Shown: positions 2,609 to 30,984 of the stretch, one piece after another
Numbering within the stretch: position 1 is the first letter of the stretch
Layout: each line of letters starts with the position of its first letter
Assembly: GCF_025698545.1 (NCBI RefSeq)
Contig: NC_068567.1
Coordinates: 8,556,001-8,620,000, forward strand
Reading direction: 5' to 3'
From: Gossypium raimondii
Lineage: Eukaryota > Streptophyta > Magnoliopsida > Malvales > Malvaceae
DNA length: 64,000 nt
Made by a program: the position numbers and the translations under genes
The notes under the pieces: generated by a model
What the model saw: the letters and a program-made list of their open reading frames with translations, nothing else
Told to the model about the DNA's origin: nothing
Databases searched by the model: none

Positions 2609-3239
2609 TGTAGCTTAATGTAGCTAACCGAGAGTTAATTTGTAAAACTATTAAAAGCTTAAGGACTTACCATGAATGATTATATGTGTTTGTGAACTTA
2701 GTTGATAGATTCAAGAGATTGATAGCTAAATAGGATTATTTTGTAAAGTGACTTTTAGTACATTAAATTAGTAAAATTTCATGAAATTCTTGTGAAAAAT
2801 TAATGAATATGAGCTAAATAGGGACTATATAGAAATCAACTAGCTTGAGTTTTGCTTAAATATGGTTAATTTGTAAGTTTCAGGTTTAGGGACTAAATTG
2901 CATAAAGAGTAAAATATTAGGGGTAATTTTACAAATTTATATTGAAATAGTTATAAGCTTAAGTTTAATTATTTGAGATGTTGGAATCTGTAACACCCTT
3001 TACCCGGTCCGGTCATCGGACCTGAGGAATAAGGTGTTACAAGTAATTACCATACAAATACAAATAATTTACAATTTAAAAGAAGTAAATAATTACTAAA
3101 TAATTACATATGGGCATGCATATGATCATTTTTTTATTTAATTCAAATAAATATTGAGTATAAGGAAACTTAAAAACAATTCAGAAAAGATCAGGGATTG
3201 ATTTGAAACAAAATGAGAAGTTGGGAAAAATCTAAAAAC

Positions 3240-3480
3240 AGGGGACACACGGTCGTGTCCCCAGATCATGTGGAAACGTCTAGCCTGTGTGAGTTTGGAC
3301 ACATGGTCATGTGTGTGAGTCACACGAATGTGTCAATAGTTTACACGACCATATAGGCAGATCGTGTAGCTTATTGACCCCGTGTGCAATAAAACCATTA
3401 AAATTTATAGACCACATGCTTGTGCCGCCAGCCCGTGTGTGGCACACGGCCGTGTGCCAGACCGTGTGCACCTAGAAAAT
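3240..3480. repeat. Cluster of ACACGG/CCGTGT palindromic motifs
   Basis: Repeated short GC-rich motifs such as CACACGGTCGTGTCC and GGCACACGGCCGTGTGCC stand out against AT-rich DNA. A similar cluster occurs near 9650-9900 in the neighbouring LTR. They are self-complementary and could form small hairpins. Confidence 0.7.
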
Positions 3481-4398
3481 TTTGTTCTAAAACATGTAAG
3501 TTATCCATGTGACACTTATACCACAAGCTACCATTTACATCAATTTTAACATATTCAAAAACATTTAATTTAAACTCAAAACATTATTGGAACAATCATC
3601 TTAAGAGTCTAACCAATATGCCACAATTGGCACCTCAAAAGCACAATTTAAAAACTAACTAAATGATCACATTCATTCATGTCAATATACCCTCATTAAT
3701 TTCTCAAGAATTCATTCTACACACGTATACATTCAACTATCATATATTTAAGTATCAAACCAGGACAACCTATCAAAATACCAATCACAACTATTATCAT
3801 CACTCAAAATGCATACTTACATAATCTCAAAAAGACTAACTAAATATAAAATGACCATTTAAAACATTAAACATCCTAGGTACATGCCAAGACCGAAAAG
3901 ATCCATTCACCAACATTGAGTTCAAGATTTGTTCAAGATTTGCCACTGTATGCTGAGTCGACAATCGGATCAATGAATACCTAACCTGAGCACACAATAG
4001 AAAATAAATCATACGATAAGTAAAACCTCATGGCATTTTTATAGTTTGGATATTTAAACATATTACGAAATAGCCAAGTACGCAATTTAAATACCATAAG
4101 AAATATGCAAAGAAACATGTAGCTTTCATATTTTCGGAACTACATTCATCAAATCTCTCTAGAGTTTCTAATATGAAGCATCTCACTTTATTTTCTTTAC
4201 TCAATAAAAATAACCACATATATATCTTATTTCATTCTAACTTTAGTATCGTTCATTATTCAGTGTTAATTTCGATTCCCATTTCTTATCTTCATTTTCC
4301 TTGTTAACGTGATTCGAACTTGGACGTCTACGCGAATCCAACCATCACACCAAATTTGGCACTCAGTGCTTGACGGATAAATTCGTAAATAATGAAAT

Positions 4399-14199: not shown

Positions 14200-16734
14200 T
14201 CACTTTGAGCCTAGTAAGGAAGAAGATTCCTTCCCCATTTCCCTCTCTGGTGTTGGAGGCGAAGCTCCTATGTTCATGAATGAAGACGATGAAGAGGGAG
14301 CAGGGTTGGATGCTGCATATGTTGACAGACCACTCACATCACTGTTTACAGTCATGGTTGTTCCACTGCTCAAGCCTTCAGCAACCAGTTTTGGAGCTGG
14401 TGGCCTCTCAATATCGATGACCCCTTCTAACATCTGCACCACTTTTCCCATCATTGGCCTTTGGGATGGTTGTTCCTGTATGCACCAAAAGCTCACCATA
14501 ATTGCCCTTTCGACTTCCTCACTATCAACATCTTTTATTCTTTTATCAACAATGGCCTCAATGTGACCCTTTTCAAACTCCGAATGAGCCCATAGGGAGA
14601 ACTTTTTACCGTCTGTTTCCGGTGAGACCTCGAAGTTCCTTCTTCCACTCACTATTTCTAATAAAACCATCCCATAGCTATAAACATCGCACTTTGAGGT
14701 TATTGGATGATTTGCAAGCCACTCTGGTGCCAAGTATCCTCTAGTCCCTCTGATGCTTGCCAATGACAAGTGCCTATGATCCTTTGGCTTCATAAGCTTT
14801 GCAAGGCCGAAATCCGACACTTTGGCAGTGTAACCTTCATCCAACAGAATGTTTTCTGGTTTTATATCGCAGTGGATTATGCAGTCTCGACATTCCTCAT
14901 GAAGGTAGGTGATTCCCCTACCCGTTCCAAGAGCAATGTTGAATCGATTTTCCCAAGTCAACAATTTTCCGGACTGGTCATTCGACGTAAAAAGGAACTT
15001 GTCAAGTGAACCATTTCTCAAGAATTCATACACTAGTAGCCTGTGACGCCCATCAGAGCAGAACCCCACCAATCTCACCAAATTCAGATGGTGTGTACTG
15101 CTAATAGTTGCAACTTCCATCCTGAATTGCATCTCACCCTGCTCGATTCCCTCGAGTTGTTTCACGGCAACCACCATTCTATTACCCAGTGTTCCTTTGT
15201 AAACAGCCCCAAAACCACCTTCTCCAAGCCTCTCCGAGAACGCCTTTGTAGACTGTTGCAGCTCCTTGTATGAGAACTTCACTGGTGCGCCAGATGCATA
15301 ATCAACAAGTTCGTATTGAGCTGATATACGCATTGATTTTTCGCTACCGCCGTAAAACCAGCACCAAAAACCAGTCACGATTGCAAACAAAGACAAAAGG
15401 ATGACCAAAACCACGACGATAATGACCATCGCATGCAACCGCGAATCGTTATCCTTCCCGGATGTATCCAAGTAAGATGATGGATTAGGAACCGCTTGTC
15501 CACAAACTTTCAAGAAAGAGGTGCTCGGAAGAACCGCACCCTGGTAACCACTAATGAAATCAGTCGTTTTCATATAACAAATCCCACTTCCATCAGCTAC
15601 TAAAGTGGAGCCAATGCAAGAACCACTGACAAGACAATTCATCCTACAAGCTACAGTTCCAACAATGAATGTCTGATCGTTAACCTCTGGAGGATAAGTT
15701 AAGAACTTGGTATGTTCTAATTGCAACATGGTAACATCCCCAGGACAATCCTCAATCTCCACTTTCCTCCTGCATCCTTTTCTACCATCATGTTCATCAA
15801 CAGGATCAAAATTCTGAGATGGACATCCACAAACCGGATTCGAATCTTTGTAACCGCAAACCCCCATGTTGCCGCAGAATCCGTAAACCTGACACTGATC
15901 AGTTACAGCCGCCCATGTCGGGGTTATATTCCCACTGCTCTCACTAGTGCTGTAAATTCTCAAATTACCATCATTATCCATCCTCAAAAACCTAAACACA
16001 TCATCACCTTCACCATAATCAGTACTATATGCCATATTAATCATTCCACGAGCAAACGAAGGATCTAAACCTACCAAAATCCCATTAGACTGCAACATAA
16101 ACCTAGGTGATGTCAAATTCCCATTGATGGATGAGTTGAACCCTAAACTCCAGTATTCAATAGTGCCATTCCAGTTCAAAGTAAGGTTACCTGATCGACC
16201 AAGAGTTAAGGAGTAAGACCCGGAGCGTAAAATCTTACCAACGGTGAAATTCTGTGAAGGAACCAAGGTATCAGTCGGGTTCTGGAACGAGGACCATATT
16301 GGAGCACTTTCATTATTGAGGAGCTGAAAGTTGCCTAAATCATCAATAGACGCATGTGAAACACCTCTGTTAGCAGTAGCAGAGTCCCAAACAACGGCAC
16401 CGGAGCCATTAGTTAAACGGAGGGCTCCATTGGGGAGCAAATTTAAAGTCCCACCAGAGTCGACAACAAGAGAAGCTCCATCACCAGTGCCATTGCTGCC
16501 ATTACTAGCTGACCATACAATAACATCACCGGCATAGTAAGTGATGGCAGCCATAAAAGAAGAGGGAGTAACGGGAACGAAAGAAAGTGAGAAACTGGCA
16601 TTGGGTGACGACCATGATTGGTTTCTATTTGAAGCTTGAAGAGTTGAACCTAAAGGTATGATGGTAGAAGATGAAGAAATGGCGAAGAGACAATGGAGGT
16701 AAAGGAGAAAAAAAGAGAGCTTAGACATTTTCAT
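14200..16734 (-). CDS. G-type lectin S-receptor-like Ser/Thr kinase
   Basis: This intronless gene of 844 residues encodes a plasma-membrane receptor kinase thought to sense extracellular ligands. In order it has a signal peptide (1-22), a bulb-type mannose-binding lectin region (about 25-160), a Cys-rich EGF-like part (281-321), a PAN/apple-like part (330-411), a membrane segment (436-459) and a kinase domain (about 503-775). Visible catalytic features are the glycine loop LGEGGFGAVY (503-512), K525 in VAVK, HCDIKPEN (621-628), DFG (641-643) and GTRGYLAPEW. The residue before the catalytic Asp is Cys, so this is a non-RD kinase, a class often linked to immune receptors. Several Asn-X-Ser/Thr sites lie in the ectodomain. 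The closest relative I recall is Arabidopsis At1g34300. The frame is intact and the start is the first Met before the signal peptide. Confidence 0.95.
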   Translation of the reverse strand: MKMSKLSFFLLYLHCLFAISSSSTIIPLGSTLQASNRNQSWSSPNASFSLSFVPVTPSSFMAAITYYAGDVIVWSASNGSNGTGDGASLVVDSGGTLNLLPNGALRLTNGSGAVVWDSATANRGVSHASIDDLGNFQLLNNESAPIWSSFQNPTDTLVPSQNFTVGKILRSGSYSLTLGRSGNLTLNWNGTIEYWSLGFNSSINGNLTSPRFMLQSNGILVGLDPSFARGMINMAYSTDYGEGDDVFRFLRMDNDGNLRIYSTSESSGNITPTWAAVTDQCQVYGFCGNMGVCGYKDSNPVCGCPSQNFDPVDEHDGRKGCRRKVEIEDCPGDVTMLQLEHTKFLTYPPEVNDQTFIVGTVACRMNCLVSGSCIGSTLVADGSGICYMKTTDFISGYQGAVLPSTSFLKVCGQAVPNPSSYLDTSGKDNDSRLHAMVIIVVVLVILLSLFAIVTGFWCWFYGGSEKSMRISAQYELVDYASGAPVKFSYKELQQSTKAFSERLGEGGFGAVYKGTLGNRMVVAVKQLEGIEQGEMQFRMEVATISSTHHLNLVRLVGFCSDGRHRLLVYEFLRNGSLDKFLFTSNDQSGKLLTWENRFNIALGTGRGITYLHEECRDCIIHCDIKPENILLDEGYTAKVSDFGLAKLMKPKDHRHLSLASIRGTRGYLAPEWLANHPITSKCDVYSYGMVLLEIVSGRRNFEVSPETDGKKFSLWAHSEFEKGHIEAIVDKRIKDVDSEEVERAIMVSFWCIQEQPSQRPMMGKVVQMLEGVIDIERPPAPKLVAEGLSSGTTMTVNSDVSGLSTYAASNPAPSSSSSFMNIGASPPTPEREMGKESSSLLGSK

Positions 16735-17750
16735 TGCAGGGGTTTATTTTCTTTGTTTCATTCTTTTTTAGTCCATTATTGTATTTAAAAGTGACCTGTA
16801 TTTTTCCTTTTGTTACGTGGCAATAATGGAGAACGTAAGGTGTGAAAGAGATGGTTTCCGCCCCATTTCCGTGGCGGAAAGTTAAAAACTCTATCTTCAG
16901 CAAAGAAAAGTATGGGTCGTCACCTTTCATCACGCCACTCATAACAACATTGAAATTAATACACCCTTCACCTTCACCTTCACCTTCACCATCACCATCA
17001 CCATCACCATCACCATGACTTTACATTCCATGACCAAAATATTTTTCTACATTTGTTCAATTACATACTAATCTTTGCTTAAAAGCCTTCTAGAATTAAT
17101 TTTAAAAAAAATCAAAGAATAATTCACCCCTCAACTTTTGAATTCAAATTTTCTTTCAAAAATTGTCTTTTTTCTTTTAGCAATTTATATGATAAACTTA
17201 ACACCACTGAAAGTAAATGTATTACTGATAAGTTATTCGAGTTCAATTCAAAAAAATTCAAGTTCGATTTAGTAATTATCGAGTCAAACTTGATCTTTCA
17301 GTCAAGCCAAATTCAAGTCTCGTAGTACTTGGTTGATCAAGTTTTAATTTTTTATATTATTAAATTACATTTTGACCCTTATATACAAAAAGAGCTTAAG
17401 GTTAAACACAAATAAACTTAATCAAGTCTCGAGTAAGAAAATTAATAGGTAAACTTAATCGAACTTAAACTTAAACTCGAGAGATTTAATTATATCTCAA
17501 AAATAAAATAAAAATTAATGTTGAATTTGAAATAGAATTTAGGTTTACCTATCCCTGAGTACAATTTTCAAATAAGAAAAGGGAGTTCAATATTTGGTTT
17601 GGTTGCCAATTCCATCAAGTTGTGAAGTTTATGGTCAATTATTATTTTTATAGAAACAATCAAATTTTTTAATTGATTGATTACACAGAAAAGTCTTTTT
17701 TTTAATACATTATTAATATATATATGTATATATATATACATATAATACTT
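16735..17750. other. Upstream region of receptor kinase
   Basis: This holds the promoter and 5' UTR of the receptor kinase (minus strand). It contains a hexamer microsatellite. Beyond about 17,220 there is TE-like sequence rich in (T)CGAGTT/CAAGTTCGA motifs, related in style to 55,310-55,720. No gene is visible. Confidence 0.5.
16967..17016. repeat. (TTCACC)n(ATCACC)n microsatellite
   Basis: About four TTCACC units are followed by about five ATCACC units, roughly 235-285 bp upstream of the receptor kinase start codon. On the gene's own strand it reads (GGTGAT)n(GGTGAA)n and could lie in the 5' UTR or core promoter. Confidence 0.85.
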
Positions 17751-17753
17751 TTA

Positions 17754-17890
17754 CACTCTGTTTGGTTCGATGTAATGCGTATAGCATTACGCGTCGAATT
17801 GGTGGGCCCCACCTATTCCAGCATTTGGTTCGTTGGTTTGCCCATTACGCGCCTAATCCATTACGTGCGTATTCCTCATTCCTCCCCGAT
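17754..17890. repeat. 5' terminal and subterminal repeats of Harbinger
   Basis: After the terminal repeat come several copies of a CATTACGCG/CCATTACGTG motif and a second TTTGGTTCG. The 3' end carries the same kind of motif as ATTACGCCTCTATTCC. Such subterminal repeats are likely binding sites for the Myb-like or transposase protein. Confidence 0.65.
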
Positions 17891-19295
17891 TTCTATTCCC
17901 TGCCCAAAGTTCAGAATAGCTTCCGTTTAGAATTCTTGAAATTTCTATGCCCTGTTTTGCCCTCATCTTCTAAGTCGAAATCCACCTCCCGAACTCTCCC
18001 TCCCAACATCAAAGAAGCTGCCAGGTGAGTGACCTCCACCGCTCCCCTTTCACTTTCATTTGATTGTTTTGTCGAACCAAACTCACCTTCTGTTCTTGAA
18101 ATGCAGTGAGTAGGGAAGTCCAAAATGACTTGCTTCATCAAATTTCAACAAGTATCTCCAAAGAAACCCAGAAGAAAACCTTTCCAATTTAATAGGTAAA
18201 TATTGTCTGCCCTAAAATTTTTCTGTGAACGTGTTTTCCCTTTTATGTCTATGATGAGAGATTCATCAAATTAGTTGAATCTCTGTTTACAACCATTTAA
18301 AATTGGCATCTAAGGTTTCTGAAAACTAAAAAATTCGACCAAAGTCACTCCCTTTGTAGCGTTCTGCCCTTCTCTGCTGGAGTTGGTGAGTCGAGTTGCG
18401 GCCTTTAAAAAGAAAAACACTATTGCCCTTTTCACACACGAACACCACCCAATTATCACACCTCTTTTCTTCATCACAATTTATTTCCCCCTTCAATTGA
18501 GCTCCACACTGTCTTTCCCCATTTCATGGATTCCTCTTTGGTTTTCGTTTTCCCTTCAGCTTTATCAAACTTTCGTTTCCCCCTTCAATCGGCACCGCTT
18601 TCTGCCTCCTCAGTTTTATCAAACTTTCTTTTCTAAACATAGTCTTGGAAGAATTTCAACTACCGCTTTTCGAAACGGGGAATTTCATATGAAGATGATG
18701 ACAGTGAAGGACAGAAGGGAGGGCCGGCTGGTTATCTTGCTTGGAAGATATCTTAGTGTCAAGAAGAAAATCTAAATTGATTTCATAACTTAAAATTTAT
18801 GGCAAACTACTTAGAAATAGAAATTTAAGACGCTATCATCATTCATATAGCAAATATGATTTCCTCGTTTGGGTTCTTAAATATATATATATATATATAT
18901 ATGCTAAATTAGCAATGGTTATACCAATAATAACTAAATTGATATAAAGGTTAAATATTATATCCTTTATGTCTAGCTAGGTAGCATTTTTAGACATATT
19001 ATGATATCAAACTTATCAAATATCAATTTGTAAGTGATTCTATAAATTAATAGAGTTATGTTTTGTATGTTTTGTATGTATATGTTACTCTAAGTTGTTG
19101 CCTGCTTTTAATACAACCACAATTGTATTAGTTGACAAAATAATATTGTGATAATTATTTTAATACTAGTTGATTTTAATTTGATTTCTGAATGTAAATT
19201 CTTTTGTATATTAGCTCCCTTGTTAAATTTCTTGCTGCTGGTGTATCTGACCACTGTTGTTCCAATAAATTGATGTTTAATGTGAACTTTTGTAG
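17891..19295. other. 5' part of Harbinger element, function unknown
   Basis: This stretch has no recognisable transposase sequence. It contains a possible exon end CTGCCAG|GTGAGT near 18,022 and pyrimidine-rich, UTR-like sequence at 18,420-18,660 with a repeated TTTATCAAACTTTC. An ORF at 18,383-18,775 matches no family I know. It may be a 5' leader or captured host DNA. Confidence 0.4.
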
Positions 19296-19371
19296 GTATT
19301 GGACTGTTAGCTATCGATTTGCTCCAGACATAAATTGTTTGCAAGCTGAAGCTTTAGTTGCAATTTAAGAG
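19296..19371 (+). pseudogene. CENH3-like exon copy 1 inside transposon
   Basis: A 76-bp segment lies between TTTTGTAG and GAG|GTATTT, so it keeps both splice borders. It reads YRFAPDINCLQAEALVAI and then a TAA stop where copy 2 has CAA (Gln). Plant CENH3 proteins have a matching stretch (...NRWTAEALVALQE...) at the N-helix/alpha-1 region, coded by an exon of about this length. R-W in copy 2 is C-L here, so this copy is degenerate. It is non-functional on its own, because only one exon of the histone fold is present. Confidence 0.65.
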
Positions 19372-19660
19372 GTATTTTATAGTTGCAATTCAAAAGGTTT
19401 TTATAGTTGCAATTCTGGTTTGAATCCAATTTTTCATTATGAAAGCCTATGACTGTTTTGAATTTAGATGGAAGATTGTTTTGAATCTGATATGCAGTCT
19501 ATTGTTCTGAAGTTTGTCTTATTTAGATGAGGGTGAAGTTTGTCTTATTTAGATGATTCTGATCTGCAGTCTAATGTGATTTCTTAGGTCAAATATCTGT
19601 ATGTTGTTTGACATGGCTTGCGTTTGGATGTGTTCTTATTTAAATTTGAATGTGTTCTTA

Positions 19661-19780
19661 TTTAGTGCAGCAAATGACCACTGCTTAAATTATTAGCTTT
19701 GATTAGGTTCTTTTTTGCTCTCTAATTATGAACTATGTGCCAATTTAGAGATCTGAAAACCCTTTGTTTCTTATAATCAT
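19661..19780 (+). repeat. 120-bp direct repeat, copy A
   Basis: Starting TTTAGTGCAGCAAATGACC, this is nearly identical to 20,282-20,401 (two substitutions by eye). The 621-bp offset shows a recent internal duplication within the transposon. Confidence 0.9.
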
Positions 19781-20281
19781 GTAACTATCGTTAAAAATTG
19801 GCATCTAATGTTTCTGAAAACTAGGGCTTAAACTAGTGCAATGTCGGGGTTACAATGTATTATTGTAACTGAACAGTTTATTTGTGTAAAGTTAACAGCC
19901 ATGTCAGCCGACCATTAGCAGTTTATGGTTTTGGACTTAAGAAAAAAGAAACGTTGTAACATTTTAAAATAGGGTAAATTTTTAATAAACTGTTCAGTTT
20001 GTGTGGTTTCTGTAGGTGAACTTAATTCTTTCAGAAGAAGATGATTAGATTGTTCTTTTTTAGTTTTTAGATGCAACATATTGGATTTTGTTGCTTCTTT
20101 ATGTCTATGTATATGTGCATGTACTTGATGATAAATATTTTCTGGCATACTGATTTCTAAACTTAGAGGGTATAAAATATTTTGGTTATAGGTCTTCGAT
20201 GGTTTGAAATGTTATAGGAATCTTCTTCCTTTCATGGTCTATTTTCATTTTAATTTGAAGTGAGACAAAAATAACTTGTCC

Positions 20282-20401
20282 TTTAGTGCAGCAAATGACC
20301 ACTGCTTAAATTATTAGCTTTGATTAGGCTCTTTTTTGCTCTCTAATTATGAACTATGTGCCAATTTAGAGATCTAAAAACCCTTTGTTTCTTATAATCA
20401 T
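20282..20401 (+). repeat. 120-bp direct repeat, copy B
   Basis: This is the second copy of the repeat at 19,661-19,780. It differs at about two positions (AGGCTC for AGGTTC, GATCTAA for GATCTGA). Confidence 0.9.
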
Positions 20402-20869
20402 TTGGTGTGTATGAAAGGAATATTGAAATATTTTATAAAGTATACTCCATGAGGTGGCATGTGCTTTGTATTCAAACTGACCTTTTGTGATTCTTTCTGC
20501 AGCATTGGTTTCTTAGTTGATAATGCTATATATATACCCAAGGAAATATCTTTTTTAAAAAGCTTTTGGGTCATTTTCAATCGTGATTTTCATGATGAAA
20601 AGCATTTAACTTTGTTTCTAATGCTGGAAACACATCTCTTGGCATTTATTTTTCCTTTGACCTGAGTTCTGGAAATGATTCGACATTAGCTTTAAATAGA
20701 AAATGCATATCAAAGTAAACAGGAACTTGAAAATGCACAATTCGGTCTGGAAACACTGATCTAAGCATTTTTTAGTCAGAGCAGGGGATTTCACATTTTT
20801 AGTGTATGAATTATGGACCAATGTTATTCAAATGCAGTATTTTAACCCATGATAGTTCTGCAGCGGTGA

Positions 20870-21052
20870 AATTTACTGTTAATTTTCTAGCTGCAGGTTT
20901 TTGTCATTTATATTAGCTGCAAAAAACCACATTCTAGATAGGCTTAAAGGTTTTAAATAGAAGATTTAAACAAATTTACTGTTAATTTTCTACCTACAGG
21001 TTTTTGTCATTGATATTAGCTGCAGGTTTTTGTCATTGATATTAGCTGTAGT
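20870..21052 (+). repeat. Short direct repeats with TTTTTGTCATTGATATTAGC
   Basis: AAATTTACTGTTAATTTTCT followed by a (G)CAGGTTTTTGTCATT segment occurs at about 20,870 and again at about 20,973. The GGTTTTTGTCATTGATATTAG part is then repeated once more. These are local tandem duplications between the two CENH3-like exon copies. Confidence 0.75.
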
Positions 21053-21233
21053 ATTTTACGGAACCTATAGATATAGAACTCATATTGTTGAATGAATTGC
21101 ATGCTTATGCCCTTGCTATTTGTTCGTTCTTTTCTTTTGCTCGTTCTTTTGCTCGTTCTTTTGCTTAAAATGCGGATGTCTGTCACTAGGTTGATTGGCT
21201 GATTGACTGTGATTTACTGTGATTCCTTTGTAG

Positions 21234-21309
21234 GTATTGGACTGTTACCTACCGATTTGCTCCAGACATAAATCGTTGGCAAGCTGAAGCTCTAGTTGCA
21301 ATTCAAGAG
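21234..21309 (+). pseudogene. CENH3-like exon copy 2 inside transposon
   Basis: This 76-bp open exon is bounded by TTTGTAG and GAG|GTGTTT. It encodes YRFAPDINRWQAEALVAIQE preceded by YWTVT. The RW-(Q/T)-AEALVA(I/L)QE pattern is typical of plant centromeric histone H3 and differs from canonical H3, which has RFQSSAVAALQE at this place. Splice borders and phase (one base, then 25 codons) are intact. The next exon of the histone (AAED...) was not seen downstream; instead the exon tail plus intron start is tandemly repeated. I read it as a captured gene fragment, not a working gene. Confidence 0.7.
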
Positions 21310-22531
21310 GTGTTTTATAGTTGCAATTCAAGAGGTATTTTATAGTTGCAATTCCAGTAAATTGGACTGTTTTTTTATGGTTCACTCTATAGTAATGTTT
21401 TTATAGTTATACTTTGCAAGTGGTGATGTAATTAGTTGATTTTTATTGGTATTGAAAAATTTGAATTTGGGATCGAATTTCATTTCAATAATGGACTTTA
21501 TAGGATAATTTATTGGTATAGGATAATTTTATTGGTATTTTTATATATAGTCACTAATTTACTTATTTTTAATTTCTATTTCAATTTAAATAATGTATTT
21601 AACTTTTAAAAGTAGTGCTAAATTTAAGAACACATTTTTAAACGGCTTTATAATTTATACTACTTTATTAAGTAAAATTGGAAGTTGAATTGGTGAATTG
21701 TTGAATATAAGAAAATTGGGAAAATATAACTTGTTGAATGCTATTGAAATAATTTAAAAGGAAAGGGATTTATATTACAATTTCCCTCCCACTGCTTACT
21801 TTCTTTCCTTATTTAATCTCGCACACCATTTGTAACTTGTAAGTCTACATTGTAATATTATTATTTTTATTTTAAAGTCTACTTGTAAGTCTACATTGTA
21901 ATATCATTTAATAGAGAGTATGTAGTTTTATTTTAATCTAATCATCTTCTTCTTTATTATATTTCATTTAAGATTATATTATCTTATCAAATAATCTAAT
22001 TATATTCAGTATGTAGTTTTAATTAATATACTAAACAAAATTTATAACTTAAATTATATCTTTTTCTGAAATCTAATTACATTAATTAATCCATAATTTT
22101 AAACTATTACCAACTTAAAGGTGAATCATTATTATGATTGATTAAATGAAGGGGTTGAATGCTTGAAAGTGCTTCTAAAAATATGATTGAAAGAAAACAA
22201 ATATTCATTGTTATTATGATTGAAAGTGCTTCTAAAATTCTTTAAAGAAAATGTGGTTTGTTAATGTTAAATTTGTAACATTGTTGTCAAAAAATACGGT
22301 TAAGATTCTAAACTAGTATTGGTCATTTTTCTTTGATAGTGTGATATTGCTTCCTATTGAAGCGACTTGTTTGATTACTTCCTCTCCGGTTCTTCTTTTC
22401 ACGCAATCACTGTAAGTTTTTTAGCAATTAAATTATTTAATTTTAGTTTACTGTTATTGAAATTATGATTGGAGAAATGTGACCATTTTAAATAAATTTG
22501 ACAATATGAAACACATTAATATCTTGCAGTA
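21310..22531. other. AT-rich leader before Harbinger transposase
   Basis: No coding signal is visible. The stretch contains duplicated TCTACATTGTAATAT (about 21,845 and 21,890). It probably includes the transposase promoter and a leader intron ending CTTGCAG at about 22,529. Confidence 0.5.
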
Positions 22532-23906
22532 ATGGCTCGTCTGTCTTTAATTGCACAAAGTGTGAGGCGTAAAAGAATTGGAATTGCATTGACAATATGG
22601 TTGGAAATCTGTAACATTGCGAGTTGGTTTATACTTACATTGGCTTCATACTTATAAACCAAGGATTAGGTCCTATATTTTAGATTTTTATGCACAACGG
22701 GATTATGTGAAAAGGCTTGTACATACTAGTGACGAGACCTGTATTGAACAAGTTAGGATGAATAGATTTGCCTTTTTCAAACTATGTGAGATGTTACAAA
22801 CGTTAGGGGGATTGAAGTCGTCAAGGCACATGCTTGTTGATGAGCAAGTTGCAATGTTTTTACATATCATTTCCCATCACCTTAAAAATTGAGTTATTAA
22901 CCATCACTTTAATAGGTCCGGGGAAACTGTTAGCAGATCATTTCATAGTGTTTTAAGTGCTGTCATACGCTTACAAGATGTGTTATTTAAAAAGCCAGAG
23001 CCAATTACAGCAAATTCTTCAGACACAAGGTGGAAATGGTTTAAGGTATTGGAATAAGTTTTATATATAGCTTGTACATAATTTAGTTGATTTAGATTTA
23101 AATTTAGTATCCTAACTTAAGGTTTTATAACATGTGATATAGAATTGCTTAGGTGCTCTTGATGGAACCCACATCAAGATTAGGGTTCCAAAAGTTGATA
23201 AACCTAGATATCGAACGCGAAAAGGTGACATAGCAACAAATATGCTAGGTGTTTGTACACCTGACATGCAATTTGTTTATGTTCTTCCTGGTTGGGAAGG
23301 TTCTGTTGCTGATGGACGAGTTCTTCGAGATGCCATTAGTAGGAGGCATGGACTAAAAATTCCTCATGGTAAAGTGGATAGTTAGAGGACTTTGAAGTAT
23401 TCATTAAGATCAAAATTTTTTGGGGAATTAATAATTAAAATTTTTTTATAGGTTGTTATTATCTAGTTGATGCTGGATACACAAATTGTGAGGGATTTCT
23501 TTCACCTTTTAGAGGACAACGTTATCATTTGAATGACTGGCGTCAGGGTTATCAGCCAAGTACTCCGCGAGAATTTTTTAATATGAAACATGCCTTAGCA
23601 CGTAATGTTATTGAAAGATGCTTTGGGTTATTAAAAATGAGATGGGGAATACTTAGGAGTCCATCATTCTATCCTGTAAGGGTGCACAATAGGATCATTA
23701 TTGCATGTTGTTTGCTCCATAATTTTATTCGAACCCATATGAGTATTGATCCTATTGAAGCGGAGGTGGGAGAAGGATTACCTAGTAATGTAGTAGATGA
23801 CGATGAACCGAATATCGTCAATATTCATCCATCGGATGCTTGGACTACTTGGAGGATGGAACTAGCCAACCAAATGTTCGATGAATGGCAAGCATCTAGA
23901 AATTAG
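22532..23906 (+). pseudogene. Harbinger DDE transposase (HARBI1/ALP1-like), disrupted
   Basis: Three exons fit: 22,532-23,045, 23,143-23,368 and 23,452-23,906, with GT-AG borders. The N-terminal part begins MARLSLIAQSVRRKRIG. The catalytic core is preserved: [10 protein letters not shown] (first Asp), [15 protein letters not shown] (second Asp) and NVIERCFGLLKMRW (Glu). This is the DDE_Tnp_4 nuclease fold of HARBI1 and plant ALP1-like proteins, which cut and join the transposon ends. Two lesions break it. A frameshift near 22,600-22,620 lies between the ATG frame and the VGLYLHWLHTYKPRI frame. An in-frame TGA at 22,890-22,892 sits where relatives have Arg (CGA to TGA, a CpG-type change). The C-terminal two thirds remain fully open. 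Confidence 0.9.
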
Positions 23907-24181
23907 TTAGGTTTAGGTAGAAAATTAGTTTGAGTTAATTAGTTTATGTTATTTTATGTATATAGTTTGTGAAACTTTGGTGGTGTTTTTGTGTTTTTTT
24001 TATTGTACTAAACTTGTTGAATTATTATTTGATTTCTTTTCATTCATCATGTGTTATAATTTTATACAGTGTTGAGTTTGTGATTCATGATATTGAACTC
24101 AATTTTAATTTTATAAAGTGTTCACCTTTTGATTCATGATATTAAACTTAATTTTAATTTGTTTTTTTTCTTAAGATAATT

Positions 24182-25239
24182 ATGTCAGGTGTTTCAGAAT
24201 CAAATGTTCCTTCTCAATCATCTCGAGGAACCAAAAGGAAATGGGTTCCAGAAGAAGATGCAGCACTGGTTTCCTGCATGGTGGACTTGCACAATGTTGG
24301 GACATTTAACGCTGATACGGGGTTCAAAGCCGGTTACTTAAACGAGTTAGAAAAAATGTTAGAGAATGCTTTACCCAATGCGATGTTGAAGGCAAGACCT
24401 AATATCGAGTCAAGGATTAGGTTATTGAAAAGAGATTGGTCAATAGTGTATGACATGCTTAATGGCCAAAACAATAGCGGTTTTGGTTGGGACGACCATA
24501 GGCAGGTCATTGTTGCTGAAGATGCGGTTTGGGACTCTTATTTAAAGGTAAGAATGAGTTCAACTCTTTATTATCCTATTCTTACCAAACTTATAACTAA
24601 TGTGATTCACTCGTTTTTATAGAGTCATAAAGAAGCCGGTCAGTTCAGACATCGTAGTTTCCCTTACTACGACCAACTTACTGCCATATACGCAAAAGAT
24701 CGAGTGACTAGAAAAGACGCTCAAACAGCCGCTGACATTCTTGAAGAAATAAATGCTGAGGATGTACCTTCTGCAGATATTAATGAAGACAGAAACGACT
24801 ACTATGATTGCGATGCTAATGTCTATTTGGATGACATGGATGTTTCTGCCACGGAGCCGCAAACAGACAAAAACCAAGGGGGTTCCTCATCTTCAAAGAG
24901 GAAAAAAAAAAGAATTCTGATGCAACTGGTTATTTTTCTTCTTCAGTTAATGATGCTGTCATTTTATTGGCTGAAAACATGCGGGCCATTGGCGAACAAA
25001 TTAGTAGGAGTATTGCCTCCGATGTGGTAGTTCACCAAAGGTCAGAAGAATACCAGAGCATCCAAGAAAAAGCGTCAAATTTATATCCAACCTTATGCGA
25101 AATAGAAGGTTTAACTGTGGATGAACGGTTTCGAGCATTGAATAAGATTCCAGATCATCCAAGTCAAATGCACGTTTTCTTTAGTTTACCTTCTGGTGTA
25201 CGGTTGGAATGGGTCAGAAGATTTCTTGCTGACCATTAA
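24182..25239 (+). pseudogene. Harbinger Myb/SANT-like accessory gene, frameshifted
   Basis: Exon 1 is 24,182-24,547 (122 codons, with the Myb/SANT-like motif KRKWVPEEDAALVSCMVDL) and exon 2 is 24,623-25,239. PIF/Harbinger elements encode such a DNA-binding partner that brings the transposase to the ends and nucleus. The second half has an acidic linker, a Lys/Arg-rich nuclear signal (SSSKRKKK) and a C-terminal helix region ending FSLPSGVRLEWVRRFLADH. The frame breaks in the A-run at 24,902-24,911: ten A are present, and one more would restore the downstream frame starting NSDATGYFSSS. Unlike the transposase, only this single lesion is seen. Confidence 0.85.
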
Positions 25240-25855
25240 AATTTATGGTTTTGTTTATGACATTTTCGTAACTTTTTCTGTTTGTGATACCATTAAAATT
25301 TACTAGAATTTCATGAATCTCATTTAACCTTTTGTTAATATTCATTGTTATTATGCTTATGCAAAATATAATTCTAAAGTTATTTATTACTGCTAATATT
25401 TTTTTATTGTAGTTGTTCCACAAATGATATTTTAGCACATTAAATATGTATTGCGTTTAATAATAATAAAGTAGATTATAAATTATAATTTAATAATAAT
25501 TAGTTAAATTATATTTTATATTATTATATATTATGATTTTAGTAAATTCATATAAGAATAAGAATTTTATTAAATTATATATTATTATTAAATTATATTT
25601 AATAATAATTATTTTAAATTATATTTTATAGTGTTATATATTATGATTTTATTAGTAAATTCATATTTAAGAATATTTATTAATCATTTTATTAAATTAT
25701 ATATTTTATTAAATTATATTTTATAACAATTATGTTAAAATATGATTAAATTATTTATTATTTATATTAATAATCTTATTAAAATTTAATAACAATAACA
25801 ATAATCATCTATCTTAAAAAAAATTCTGCTAAGGGTATTCTAGTCATTTTAGCTT
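25240..25855. other. AT-rich tail of Harbinger element
   Basis: This is very AT-rich, with several diverged repeats of AAATTATATTTTATA...TATTATATATTATGATTTTA. No gene is visible. Confidence 0.6.
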
Positions 25856-26008
25856 TTTTCCTTATGCTATTACACCTCTATTCCATTCAACCAAACACAA
25901 GAATACCATTACGCCTCTATTCCATTACATTCAACCAAACAAAAGAATTACCTATTACGCCTCTATTCCATTACGCCTCTATTCCATTACAGCGAACCAA
26001 ACGTGGTG
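25856..26008. repeat. 3' subterminal repeats and terminal repeat of Harbinger
   Basis: A motif close to ATTACGCCTCTATTCCATT occurs about four times, separated by CAACCAAACA(C/A)AAGAAT. The terminal inverted repeat ends AACCAAACGTGGTG. CAACCAAAC itself resembles the terminal repeat, so the end looks like stacked partial copies. Confidence 0.85.
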
Positions 26009-26011
26009 TTA

Positions 26012-28425
26012 GTGTTTACTAGGTTAAGGTTGAGATTTTGGATCCTTAAATATTCAAGTTTGACTCTCGTCATGCACAATTGCAAATGTTTCTTCAGTTT
26101 AGGGGCGAATCTATAAAATTTTTAGAAAGGGTCAAAATTGAATTATAATTTTTGGGATATCAAATATAGATTTTATCATGAATTAATTTATGATTTTATA
26201 ATTTTTAAAAGGACTAAATAGATTTTTTTTTTCATTTTTAGAAGGGTAAAAGCATAATTTTCCCTATATTAATTTATAATGAACTAGAATTAAAATTTTC
26301 TAATTTTAAGTGGCAAGGCCCGACGTACCCATGGATCTATTTCAGTCTCATCATATATGTCATGAATGAGTTTTGTCCGAATCCTTTATATTTTTACCTA
26401 ATTTTTTCTAATTCTTCGTTCTTTTTTATTTTCGATTGATTTTATTTTACGTTGTAGTTACTCAAATATATATTTGTATTAGTACTCTATTTATAATAAT
26501 AAACTTTTCAAAATTATATCTATATTCTACCAAGCGGAATATGATATTAGGGCACAATCAGTAATTTTATATTGAATAGTGGGGATAAAAAATAAATTAA
26601 AAGATTTCAAAATATTAAAACGTAATTATTTTTCTATTTTAATTATAAAAATACAAAACTTATAAAATTTCAAAAACAATACAAAAGGACTTCAGAGTAT
26701 ATTAATTTTGCTGTTGTGGCAGTTAAAATATTTTGACGCCTTCTCTTATTATTATTTTAGTTTATTTTATTTTAATTATTAATTTTAGGGATAAAAGTTA
26801 ATTTTTGAATTTTGATAATTTTTAACTCGGTTCCCAATTTGTCTTAATTTTTTTTCAATTTTGGTCCTTATAATAATCTAGCATTTTGATTATGTCACGT
26901 CATAATTTAATTTTTATTAAAAATATATTATTTTATGCGGCAACATGATATAATATTAGAATATAATCACATAAATTAAAATTTAAAAAATATCTAAACA
27001 AAAAAATCAAAACTAATTTTTAAAAATCATTAACTTTATGGAATAAATGTTAATTTTATGCCATTATCATATTTGAAATGATGGGTTTTATTATAATTTT
27101 GTATCTTATATTACTTTGAAAGTTATAACATTTGTGATGTGTAATGTCCCAACGATGTTTTATTTTATATTTTGATTTGTTAGATGCAGACATTTTTTCT
27201 TCAAGATTTTTTCATTTGTTCTTTGAATTTTCGAATAAATTGATTTTATTCAATTTCGTATCAATATGAAATTTAGTCTTCAATCATTGAGCTTCTACGA
27301 TTTTTATTTTTCCAGCCTATAATGGTGGAAGACGACCTACCTTTGATTATTCTTCTTATATACCTTGTCTTCATTTAATGTATTAACCCAACGCCCAAGA
27401 CATAAATATGTGGCCACATGTTATTATGATTTTCCTTTTTTAAGTTACGGTACTTTGTATGATAAATCGACCAATCAATACATCAATTTAAATTTTGGAT
27501 TTTTGAATTCAGACAAACTTAATTCAATGAGATCTTTCATTCACATTTTTTCCCATCAAGAGCGTTTTATAAATTTCTGGGACTCCCAAATTTGGAGTAA
27601 GATTGAATGTGCCCCTCTTCCGTATATGTACAAATAGAATAACCTATTTATACATAATGGTAAAGGGATCCCCTATGACCATCAATCGTAGAAATAAATA
27701 GAAAAAGGAAGAGATATTTTAATTCTTACAAACTTGATCTTGTTACCCTCGACAACAAACATGTTTGAACCATTTCATCAAGTATGTGTTTGGATAATTC
27801 AAAGTTTTGATAATTAGTTCTCTTTCGGTCAAAAACCAACATCGATGAAGACGTGTGGGTGCACTATTTTGCAGTGAGAATTATAACTTTTCATGAATTT
27901 TCCATTTCTCACTCAACAACGTAACTTTGAGGTTTTTTTTTTTTTGAGGATCAACGAATCAAATGATTTTTTTTCTAATTTTTGCCTCTATTCTCCCTAT
28001 GAATCAAACATTATAAGCATTGAATTGAATTAATTCAATAATTTACTCTAACTAACTAACTAGAATAAATCTAGGAGAGAATCCACACATTTACGTAAGG
28101 TGTGACTAGAACTTGAGATCTCAAAATTCCTCGAGCCTCAAACTTGCAATTGAACCAAGGCCTAAATGGCAAATATTGTTATGAAATTTGGTTTTGATTT
28201 TGAGATAAATAAATTATATTTAAAATTATTTTAGTTTAAATTAATTCAGAATAATAATTTTGTTGAGGGATTTTTTACTCTTCTAAGAGAAGTCTAGAAA
28301 GTGTCGTTATCTAGGACCACAGACCCTTCAACAAGTTCGTATTGCCTTTGATGGAGATTTTATCTCCCAACTCTAACAAAAACTCAAGTGCCTAAATTGG
28401 TAGCCTATTCACAAAGCAAGAGTGT
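26012..28425. other. AT-rich intergenic DNA
   Basis: No convincing gene was found. The ORF at 27,365-27,637 (90 codons) has no recognisable domain. The text has the low-complexity feel of old decayed transposons, such as 'ggtcctta', 'agggtaaaa' and 'attttgacc' strings, but no boundaries could be set. Confidence 0.5.
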
Positions 28426-28969: not shown

Positions 28970-30984
28970 AATTTAAAGATTTTTGGGTGTCTTGCGTATG
29001 CTCATGTTGATAATGGTAAATTGGAACCTAGATCTATTAAGTGTGTTTTTCTTGAATATAAGGCTGGTGTTTAAGGGTATAAGTTATGGTGTCCTGAAAA
29101 TAGAAAACTTGTGATTAGCAGAAATGTTGTTTTTGATGAAACTACTGTGCTGTCTAACTTATCTCTTAAAGACTCTTCAAATAAAAACCAATAGAAATCA
29201 AACACACATGTGAAGCAGGAGGAGCTTCAGATTGATCCAGGATCTACAACAGAGTTTAATACTAAGGTTAGTATAGAAACACAGAGAAGAGTTACTTCTT
29301 TACCACAATCAGCATCACAATATTTTATTGCCAAGAACAGACCTAAAAGAGAAATTAAACCTCTAAAAAGGTTCACCGAGGCTGATCTAGTTGCTTATGC
29401 TTTAAATGTGACTAAAGATATAGATGCAAATCAAGAGCCATCTACTTATTCTGAGGCAGTTAGCTGTAAAGATTCAGGAAAGTGAATGATTTCTATGCAA
29501 GAAGAGATGGAATCACTCCATAAGAATAGAATATGGGACTTAGTGAAGCTTCTTAAGGGTAAAAAGGTTGTTCGTTTTAAATGGGTGTTTAAGAAGAAGA
29601 AAAAAGGCTTCAAAAGTTGAAGAACTCAAGTATAAAACAAGGCTAGTTGCAAAAAGTTACAATCAGGTTCCAGGTGTAGACTTCACAGATGTATTTCTCC
29701 AGTTTTTAAGCATAGTTCGATTCGATCCTTACTAGGTATTGTGGTCATATATGATTTGGAGCTTGAGCAGTTAAATATGAAAACAACATTCTTGCATAAA
29801 AAACTTGAGAAAGATATTTACATGCAACAACCGGAGAGCTTTATAGTCTCAGAAAAGTAGGACTATGTTTTCTTGCTGAAAAAGTCCCTTTATGGCTTGA
29901 AACAGTCACCTAGATAGTGATACAAGAGGTTTGATTCATTTATGACTACTTATGATTTCAAAAGAAGCAGCTTTGACAGTTTTGTTTATTTTAAGAAAAA
30001 TTGTGATGGTTCATCTGTATATCTGCTCCTTTATGTTGATGACATGTTCATAACAACCAAAGATAAATGAGAGATAAGAAAAGTCAAAGCCCAGCTTAGT
30101 AAAGAATTTGAGATGATAGATTTGGGAGCAATAAAGAAGATACTCAGGATGGAAATTCTTAGAGATAGAAAAGCATGTAAACTGTACCTAAGTTAGAAAA
30201 GGTACATTGATAAAGTTCTTTGTAGGTTCAATATGCAGAGTGCCAAGGTTGTTAGTACTCCATTAGCAGCCCACTTTAGACTTTCATCGGCTTTGTCTCT
30301 GCAATCAGATAATGAGATTGACTACATATCACGTGTTCCATATTCTAGTGCAGTGAGATCTCTCATGTATGTTATGGTTTCCTTACGTCTAAATTTATCA
30401 TATGCAGTTAGTAGACACATGACAAATCCCGGTAAAGAACACTGGAAAGCAGTTCAATGGATTTTTAGATACTTGCGAAGTACTACTAATGTTTGCTTAC
30501 AGTTTGGAAGAACTAAATATGGATTCATTGGGTATGTTGATTCTGATTTTGTTGAAAACCTTGATAAAAGAAGATCTCTCACACGGTATGTCTTTACTAT
30601 TGGGGGTTGCGCAATCAGTTGGAAAGTCACTTTGCAAACCATAGTTGTTTTGTCTACTTCTGAATTTGAGTACATGATGATTACTGGGGCTTATAAAGAA
30701 GTTATTTAGTTAAAAGGACTCTTTGGTGAACTCAGTAAAGACCTCTAGATCAATACAGTGTTTTTTGATAGTCAGAATGTCATATTCCTTACGAAGGATC
30801 AAATGTTTCCTGAGAGAACAAAGTACGTTGATGTTCGGTATCATTTTGTGCAAGATATTATTGCTCGTGGTGATATTGTTATGAGCAAAGTTAGTACTCA
30901 TGATAATCATATGGATATGATGACTAAGTCACTTACTATAACTAAGTTTAAGCATTGCTTGGACTTGGTTGGTGTTCATTGTTG
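28970..30984 (+). pseudogene. Copia integrase-end, RT and RNase H remnant
   Basis: In order, the remnants are GCLAYAHV and GYKLWCPENRK (integrase C-terminal part), a linker with SASQYFIAKNRPKREIKPLKR, RT pieces YGLKQSPR (stop) WYKRFD and LLLYVDDMFI, and an RNase H-like end with SDFVENLDKRRSLTRYVF. The reading ends [19 protein letters not shown]. Several in-frame stops and shifts interrupt it. The 158-codon RNase H part (30,233-30,709) is the longest surviving open piece. Confidence 0.85.

Follow-up and report, generated by a model that had tools for sequence, protein, structure and literature searches.

A piece of the centromeric histone gene CENH3 inside PIF/Harbinger transposons of Gossypium raimondii

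In Gossypium raimondii, a PIF/Harbinger transposon has very probably taken up genomic DNA of the host's own CENH3 gene, and this cargo appears to have spread as a passenger, been trimmed and reshuffled, and drifted neutrally. We came upon it in a window of 64,000 nucleotides – the whole stretch of DNA analysed here, corresponding to bases 8,556,001–8,620,000 of contig C3 – and followed it through a genome of 750.8 Mb in 281 contigs. Capture of host exons by PIF elements is already known; the unusual part is CENH3 as the donor. The initial annotation of the window pictured a single odd element, a picture that gives way to one of at least 60 transposon copies of the same exon.

The element in the window spans positions 17,754–26,008 (8,255 bp), and its ends can be read directly: TTA target-site duplications lie on the left (17,751–17,753) and right (26,009–26,011) flanks, and the terminal inverted repeats (TIRs) are related to one another. 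The 5′ repeat, CACTCTGTTTGGTTCGATGTAATG (17,754–17,777, plus strand), resembles the termini of six other loci (L023, L024, L025, L027, L028 and L036), and the 3′ repeat (25,985–26,008) reads CACCACGTTTGGTTCGCTGTAATG on the minus strand. Between them, all on the plus strand, come a long 5′ region holding the captured sequence (17,778–22,532), a PIF/Harbinger transposase gene remnant of three exon-like blocks (22,533–23,908) and a second open reading frame (ORF) with a Myb/SANT-like domain (24,183–25,239). In profile searches, the transposase matched DDE_Tnp_4 (E 1e-12) and Plant_tran (E 1.7e-5) at 23,439–23,906, and the second ORF matched PF12776 (E 3.4e-12) at 24,158–24,622. TIRs with a TTA duplication, a Harbinger-type DDE transposase and a Myb/SANT second ORF together place the element in PIF/Harbinger, as had been proposed. 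It is not autonomous – a property that membership does not require – since the first transposase block has a frame change and a stop and the 3′ part of the second ORF has frame changes; in each of the nine exon-bearing relatives examined, transposase and second ORF likewise show at least one break or absent block. With host exon and intron sequence inside its TIRs, a donor gene elsewhere in the genome and a transposase sequence that is present but broken, the element also has the features of Pack-TYPE (transduplicating), non-autonomous transposons.

The surroundings of the cargo are themselves repetitive: a 120-bp unit occurs at 19,661–19,780 and again, with 98% identity, at 20,282–20,401 (both plus strand). 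No Rfam family was found at gathering scores in window positions 17,000–27,000. Adjoining the insertion, on the minus strand at 14,200–16,743, is an open frame of 847 residues with B_lectin, S_locus_glycop and kinase domains, that is, a lectin receptor kinase; further along, at 29,195–30,709 (plus strand), lie frames that we take to be remnants of copia-type retrotransposons.

Two 76-bp segments with splice borders, the feature that first drew attention to the element, were found at 19,297–19,372 and 21,235–21,310 (plus strand), flanked by AG and GT, within the long 5′ region and in the same orientation as the transposase. Their translations are those originally given: copy 1 reads YWTVSYRFAPDINCLQAEALVAI*E, with a stop at the penultimate codon and the RW pair gone (NCLQ vs SRWQ in the host), and copy 2 reads YWTVTYRFAPDINRWQAEALVAIQE and is open in the FAPDINRWQAEALVAIQE frame. 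Ahead of copy 1, the end of CENH3 intron 4 is retained at 19,269–19,296 (plus strand), as seen both by blastn to the donor gene and by alignment. Each copy continues into a plus-strand tandem repeat made of the exon end and the donor GT, with a period of 24–25 at 19,355–19,415 for copy 1 and of 25 at 21,293–21,354 for copy 2.

The donor gene, L019, was located by a protein search of the same genome at C7:31,558,000–31,566,500 on the minus strand (positions within it are counted below on its reverse complement). It is intact, with seven exons encoding 153 residues, the C-terminus GGMGQPW and a Histone domain (PF00125, E 6e-32). Its exon borders at coding nucleotides 99 and 136/137 coincide with the splice-variant positions of cotton CenH3 in the available text of PMC4308911, where the gene has seven exons and a coding length of 492 bp, vs 459 in the present gene model. 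A second CENH3 locus, L020 (C8:3,742,000–3,750,500), is decayed and has a stop in exon 5; at about 3.4 kb from this exon there is an end of a Harbinger element belonging to the same family. On the contig of the working gene, and about 255 kb from it, is an exon-5-bearing Harbinger copy, L072 (C7:31,303,000–31,309,000).

The lack of a match of the genome's own CENH3 gene across the exon and its intron edges had been named beforehand as what would refute a CENH3 origin, but the gene does match: copy 1, taken together with 28 bases of its intron edge, aligns to exon 5 of L019 over 105 bp (87.6% identity, E 2e-29, blastn), and copy 2 aligns over 85 bp (90.6%, E 1e-26). This nucleotide match of 88–91%, including the intron edge for copy 1, points to CENH3 rather than canonical H3; the latter is ruled out as the origin, as the donor exon and intron edge belong to CENH3. 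The 25-residue peptide alone had no match among Pfam families or PDB chains. What the window holds is exon 5 only (25 codons), without a complete histone fold, and so not a CENH3 gene.

A search of other Harbinger copies for the same cargo had been suggested, and 58 more exon copies were aligned from across the genome. The source searches, in three of which the best 40 of 117, 68 and 85 candidates were scored, gave at least 60 transposon exon copies – the window's two included – which were aligned with L019 and L020. The exon measures 76 nt in 49 copies, 75 in eight, 74 in two and 77 in one, and its start is of the host type in two (L021 and L030) and of another type in the remaining 58. The start of CENH3 intron 5 is retained in 31 of the 60; the other 29 are of a repeat type, in which the intron-5 side has been exchanged and the exon with its borders left in place. 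Among 18 longer loci (L021–L038), six have clean paired TIRs with TTA/TAA around the exon (L023, L024, L025, L027, L028 and L036), although L024, L027, L028 and L036 also show weaker terminal pairings; L026 has only a doubtful pair, its better ends being flanked by TTG on both sides. The other 11 lack paired TTA/TAA ends, showing one end, a non-canonical duplication or a fetched stretch that is too short. Approached from the transposase, 13 of the best 40 of 541 candidate copies have an exon copy in the same orientation up to 7 kb upstream, and the other 27 have none of the 53 listed exon places nearby.

The segments had been described as captured and duplicated; capture stands, and a simple local duplication falls, since the two copies belong to two subfamilies. 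They share 92% identity across 114 bp; with the exon of L003, copy 1 reaches 97%, and with those of L002, L004 and L005, copy 2 reaches 96–97%. In a tree drawn without branch-support values, copy 1 falls beside L023 and copy 2 beside L022 and L024, in separate parts of the repeat-type clade. On either side of 18,626–19,786, the window is matched by L022 and L024, both of which are without copy 1; L023 matches 17,753–20,728 and then from 23,973 onwards, without copy 2. The window type, with both copies, has the look of a composite joining two subfamilies, and the types of L022, L024 and L023 may have been derived from it by deletion.

The cargo's own sequence identifies the captured material as genomic DNA and not mRNA, because those 31 copies keep the start of intron 5 and because longer, intron-bearing pieces are present in four elements; with introns in the cargo, an origin from processed mRNA is ruled out. 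In these four – L021, L030, L070 and L071 – the CENH3 sequence falls within the part of the gene that starts at the end of intron 2 and reaches into intron 5. In L021 and L030 it covers gene positions 3,245–3,485 and 3,594–4,341, introns included, and in L070 and L071 positions 3,174–3,589 and 3,594–3,835, without exon 5. A stretch of other sequence lies between the CENH3 pieces: 584–585 bp in L021 and L030, and 259 bp in L070 and L071, the others being 96–97% like that of L030. The stretch in L030 shows a 93% match to the 5′ leader of a gene of the HPAT family (C6:56,885,897–56,886,448, within locus L079 at C6:56,885,200–56,887,200; PF23452). Because this HPAT-leader stretch sits between their CENH3 pieces, the four elements are, judged by their sequence, mosaics of two host genes. 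The full 584 bp of the leader stretch also occurs at C7:1,394,746 and C9:10,834,108, and parts of it at further places.

The longer pieces also bear on the number and age of captures. Over gene positions 3,594–4,341, the K2P distance to the host is 0.033 for L030 and 0.045 for L021; for intron sequence, it is 0.032 in L030, 0.047 in L021 and 0.059 in L072. At a rate of a few times 1e-9 substitutions per site and year, these distances would correspond to some millions of years. In the longer elements, sites in exons 3–4 tend to differ from the host more often than the intron 4-to-intron 5 part does, with 10/89 vs 24/747 differences in L030 and 10/156 vs 12/242 in L070. The K2P of 0.13–0.26 across exon 3–exon 4, at first sight a sign of an older capture, is partly due to a stretch of CENH3 intron 3 that has been replaced in L021, L030, L070 and L071 alike; a somewhat higher divergence of the exon sites persists nonetheless, a hint of either two captures or partial conversion. 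The short-sequence tree, for which L020 was chosen as the root, places the host among the transposon copies, beside L021 and L030 – a placement with which more than one CENH3 capture would be compatible.

Together, these observations suggest the following course of events. The 5′ region of a PIF/Harbinger element very probably acquired a CENH3 piece that starts at the end of intron 2, reaches intron 5 and spans about 1.2 kb with introns included, presumably in a single main capture and through either faulty excision and repair or template switching. The fragment then multiplied as a passenger whenever transposase moved the element. Later trimming and reshuffling, in what was presumably this order, would have left the longer fragments (L021, L030, L070 and L071), exon 5 with its intron ends, and exon 5 with the 25-nt donor-end repeat, and the window's element would be a composite joining exon copies from two of the resulting subfamilies. 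The cargo itself would have had no function.

This account has to be weighed against others, concerning both the source of the cargo and what it does. The decayed C8 locus, with a related Harbinger end not far from its exon 5, offers itself as a donor in place of the working gene, yet the window copies match L020 at only 78–80%, against 88–91% for L019, and over the exon core all 60 copies are nearer to L019 (mean 92.0% vs 81.2%). Descent from the pseudogene is thus exceedingly improbable – identity rules L020 out as donor, the tree being uninformative here because it is rooted on that locus. About as hard to credit is the idea that the exon encodes a CENH3-derived peptide used by the element, and with it the coding value that the initial annotation had implied. 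The 63-nt core is indeed open in the CENH3 frame in 45 of the 60 copies. However, alignment of the window exon with that of the host shows GTATTGGACTG in place of the host's GTAAGAGCTA and 76 nt in place of 75, a frame-shifting length found in 49 of 60 copies; in the host's phase, each of the window copies runs into a stop, as do 49 of the 54 copies that can be tested; and a 25-residue piece makes no complete histone fold. Changes counted on the tree over the 63-nt core of the 60 copies numbered 115, of which 77 were non-synonymous, 30 synonymous and eight stops, against neutral expectations of 79.5, 24.1 and 11.4. The exon cargo thus fits the expectation for neutral drift, and a maintained CENH3 peptide is unlikely because the host exon has 75 nt where most copies have 76 and because the substitutions are neutral in pattern.

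Two further readings grant the cargo an effect at the level of RNA. The exon might be retained because it is spliced into the 5′ leader of the element, or it might enter chimeric transcripts with genes near insertions: the donor GT is kept in 60/60 copies and the acceptor AG in 57/60, exon and transposase point the same way both in the window and in 13 matched transposase–exon pairs, and in the 29 repeat-type copies exon and borders stayed while the intron-5 side changed. Yet in the 30 copies with a clearly host-like intron 5, exon diversity (0.057; 107/1,886 cells) is not below that of intron 5 (0.038; 39/1,028) or the intron 4 end (0.030; 18/600), and kept borders are weak evidence among related copies; near-universal splice borders fit youth as well as use, and we regard retention for splicing as improbable. 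Slightly less so, though still doubtful, is an action on CENH3 through small RNAs, in which methylated copies would yield 21–24-nt RNAs matching exon 5 and introns 3–5 that damp or methylate the donor, or the host would spare the elements since silencing them would harm CENH3. In a k-mer scan of 266 bases around each exon, which left out exons 3–4 of L070 and L071, at least one of the 60 copies perfectly matched 33 of the 442 CENH3 coding 21-mers, 27 of the 439 coding 24-mers and 541 of the 2,636 gene-span 21-mers; 34 copies had at least one perfect coding 21-mer, and the window alone had eight of the coding 21-mers and two of the coding 24-mers. Captured fragments in maize are described as siRNA sources in conflict with the donor gene in the available text of the review PMC13317346, which also covers capture mechanisms. 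Against this stands the host CENH3 gene itself, which is intact, so that any effect must be tolerated. Small-RNA effects are thus possible as far as the matches go; passive spread of neutrally drifting CENH3 DNA is the reading that we prefer.

Several known systems resemble this passenger cargo in part. In grapevine, the Pifvine-3 elements (PMC2528002) belong to the PIF superfamily, have mostly TTA/TAA duplications and carry long 5′ regions, of up to 3.5 kb, with host exons and introns, some common to several copies; CENH3 is not named among their cargo in the available text, whereas here a single small exon recurs in dozens of elements, reshuffled into subfamilies. In G. raimondii itself, PIF/Harbinger capture of MIR482/2118d is reported in PMC12030055, likewise with spread of a host gene in Gossypium, although the cargo there is a microRNA gene and here a piece of a histone gene. 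Pack-PIF elements, present in maize and rice (PMC8903248), share with the window's element coding DNA captured between PIF TIRs, TTA/TAA duplications and non-autonomy, but the latter retains a broken transposase and second ORF alongside its cargo. The ULP-carrying MULEs known as KAONASHI (PMC13317346, PMC2528002) are also multi-copy DNA transposons with a host gene piece – in their case a whole protease domain described as conserved, in contrast to 76 nt under neutral drift. The two partners also meet at the CENH3 loci of rice and other grasses, with Harbinger fragments in their spacers (PMC8603533): Harbinger sequence and CENH3 lie side by side, as here, but there transposon pieces sit beside CENH3, whereas here CENH3 pieces sit inside the transposon. 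The same source mentions truncated CENH3 fragments in soybean, and in its available text neither case is described as transposon capture. CENH3 as transposon cargo was not found in the literature searched, which consisted mostly of titles and the starts of abstracts and lay outside supplements and subscription journals.

CENH3 is essential, and a target of haploid-induction breeding. If perfect 21–24-nt matches to its exon 5 and introns are present in dozens of transposons, any guide RNA, hairpin, probe or primer designed on these parts of the gene would hit many other sites, and dispersed exon copies may lead annotation pipelines to false CENH3 gene calls. More speculatively – and we think it unlikely – the transposon family could form a dispersed reservoir of CENH3-matching sequence that couples its silencing to CENH3 expression via small RNAs; the captured exon would then partly protect the element in a conflict within the genome. 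The family would in any event provide a natural test case for the effect, sparing or harmful, that siRNAs derived from captured fragments have on a donor gene that is essential.
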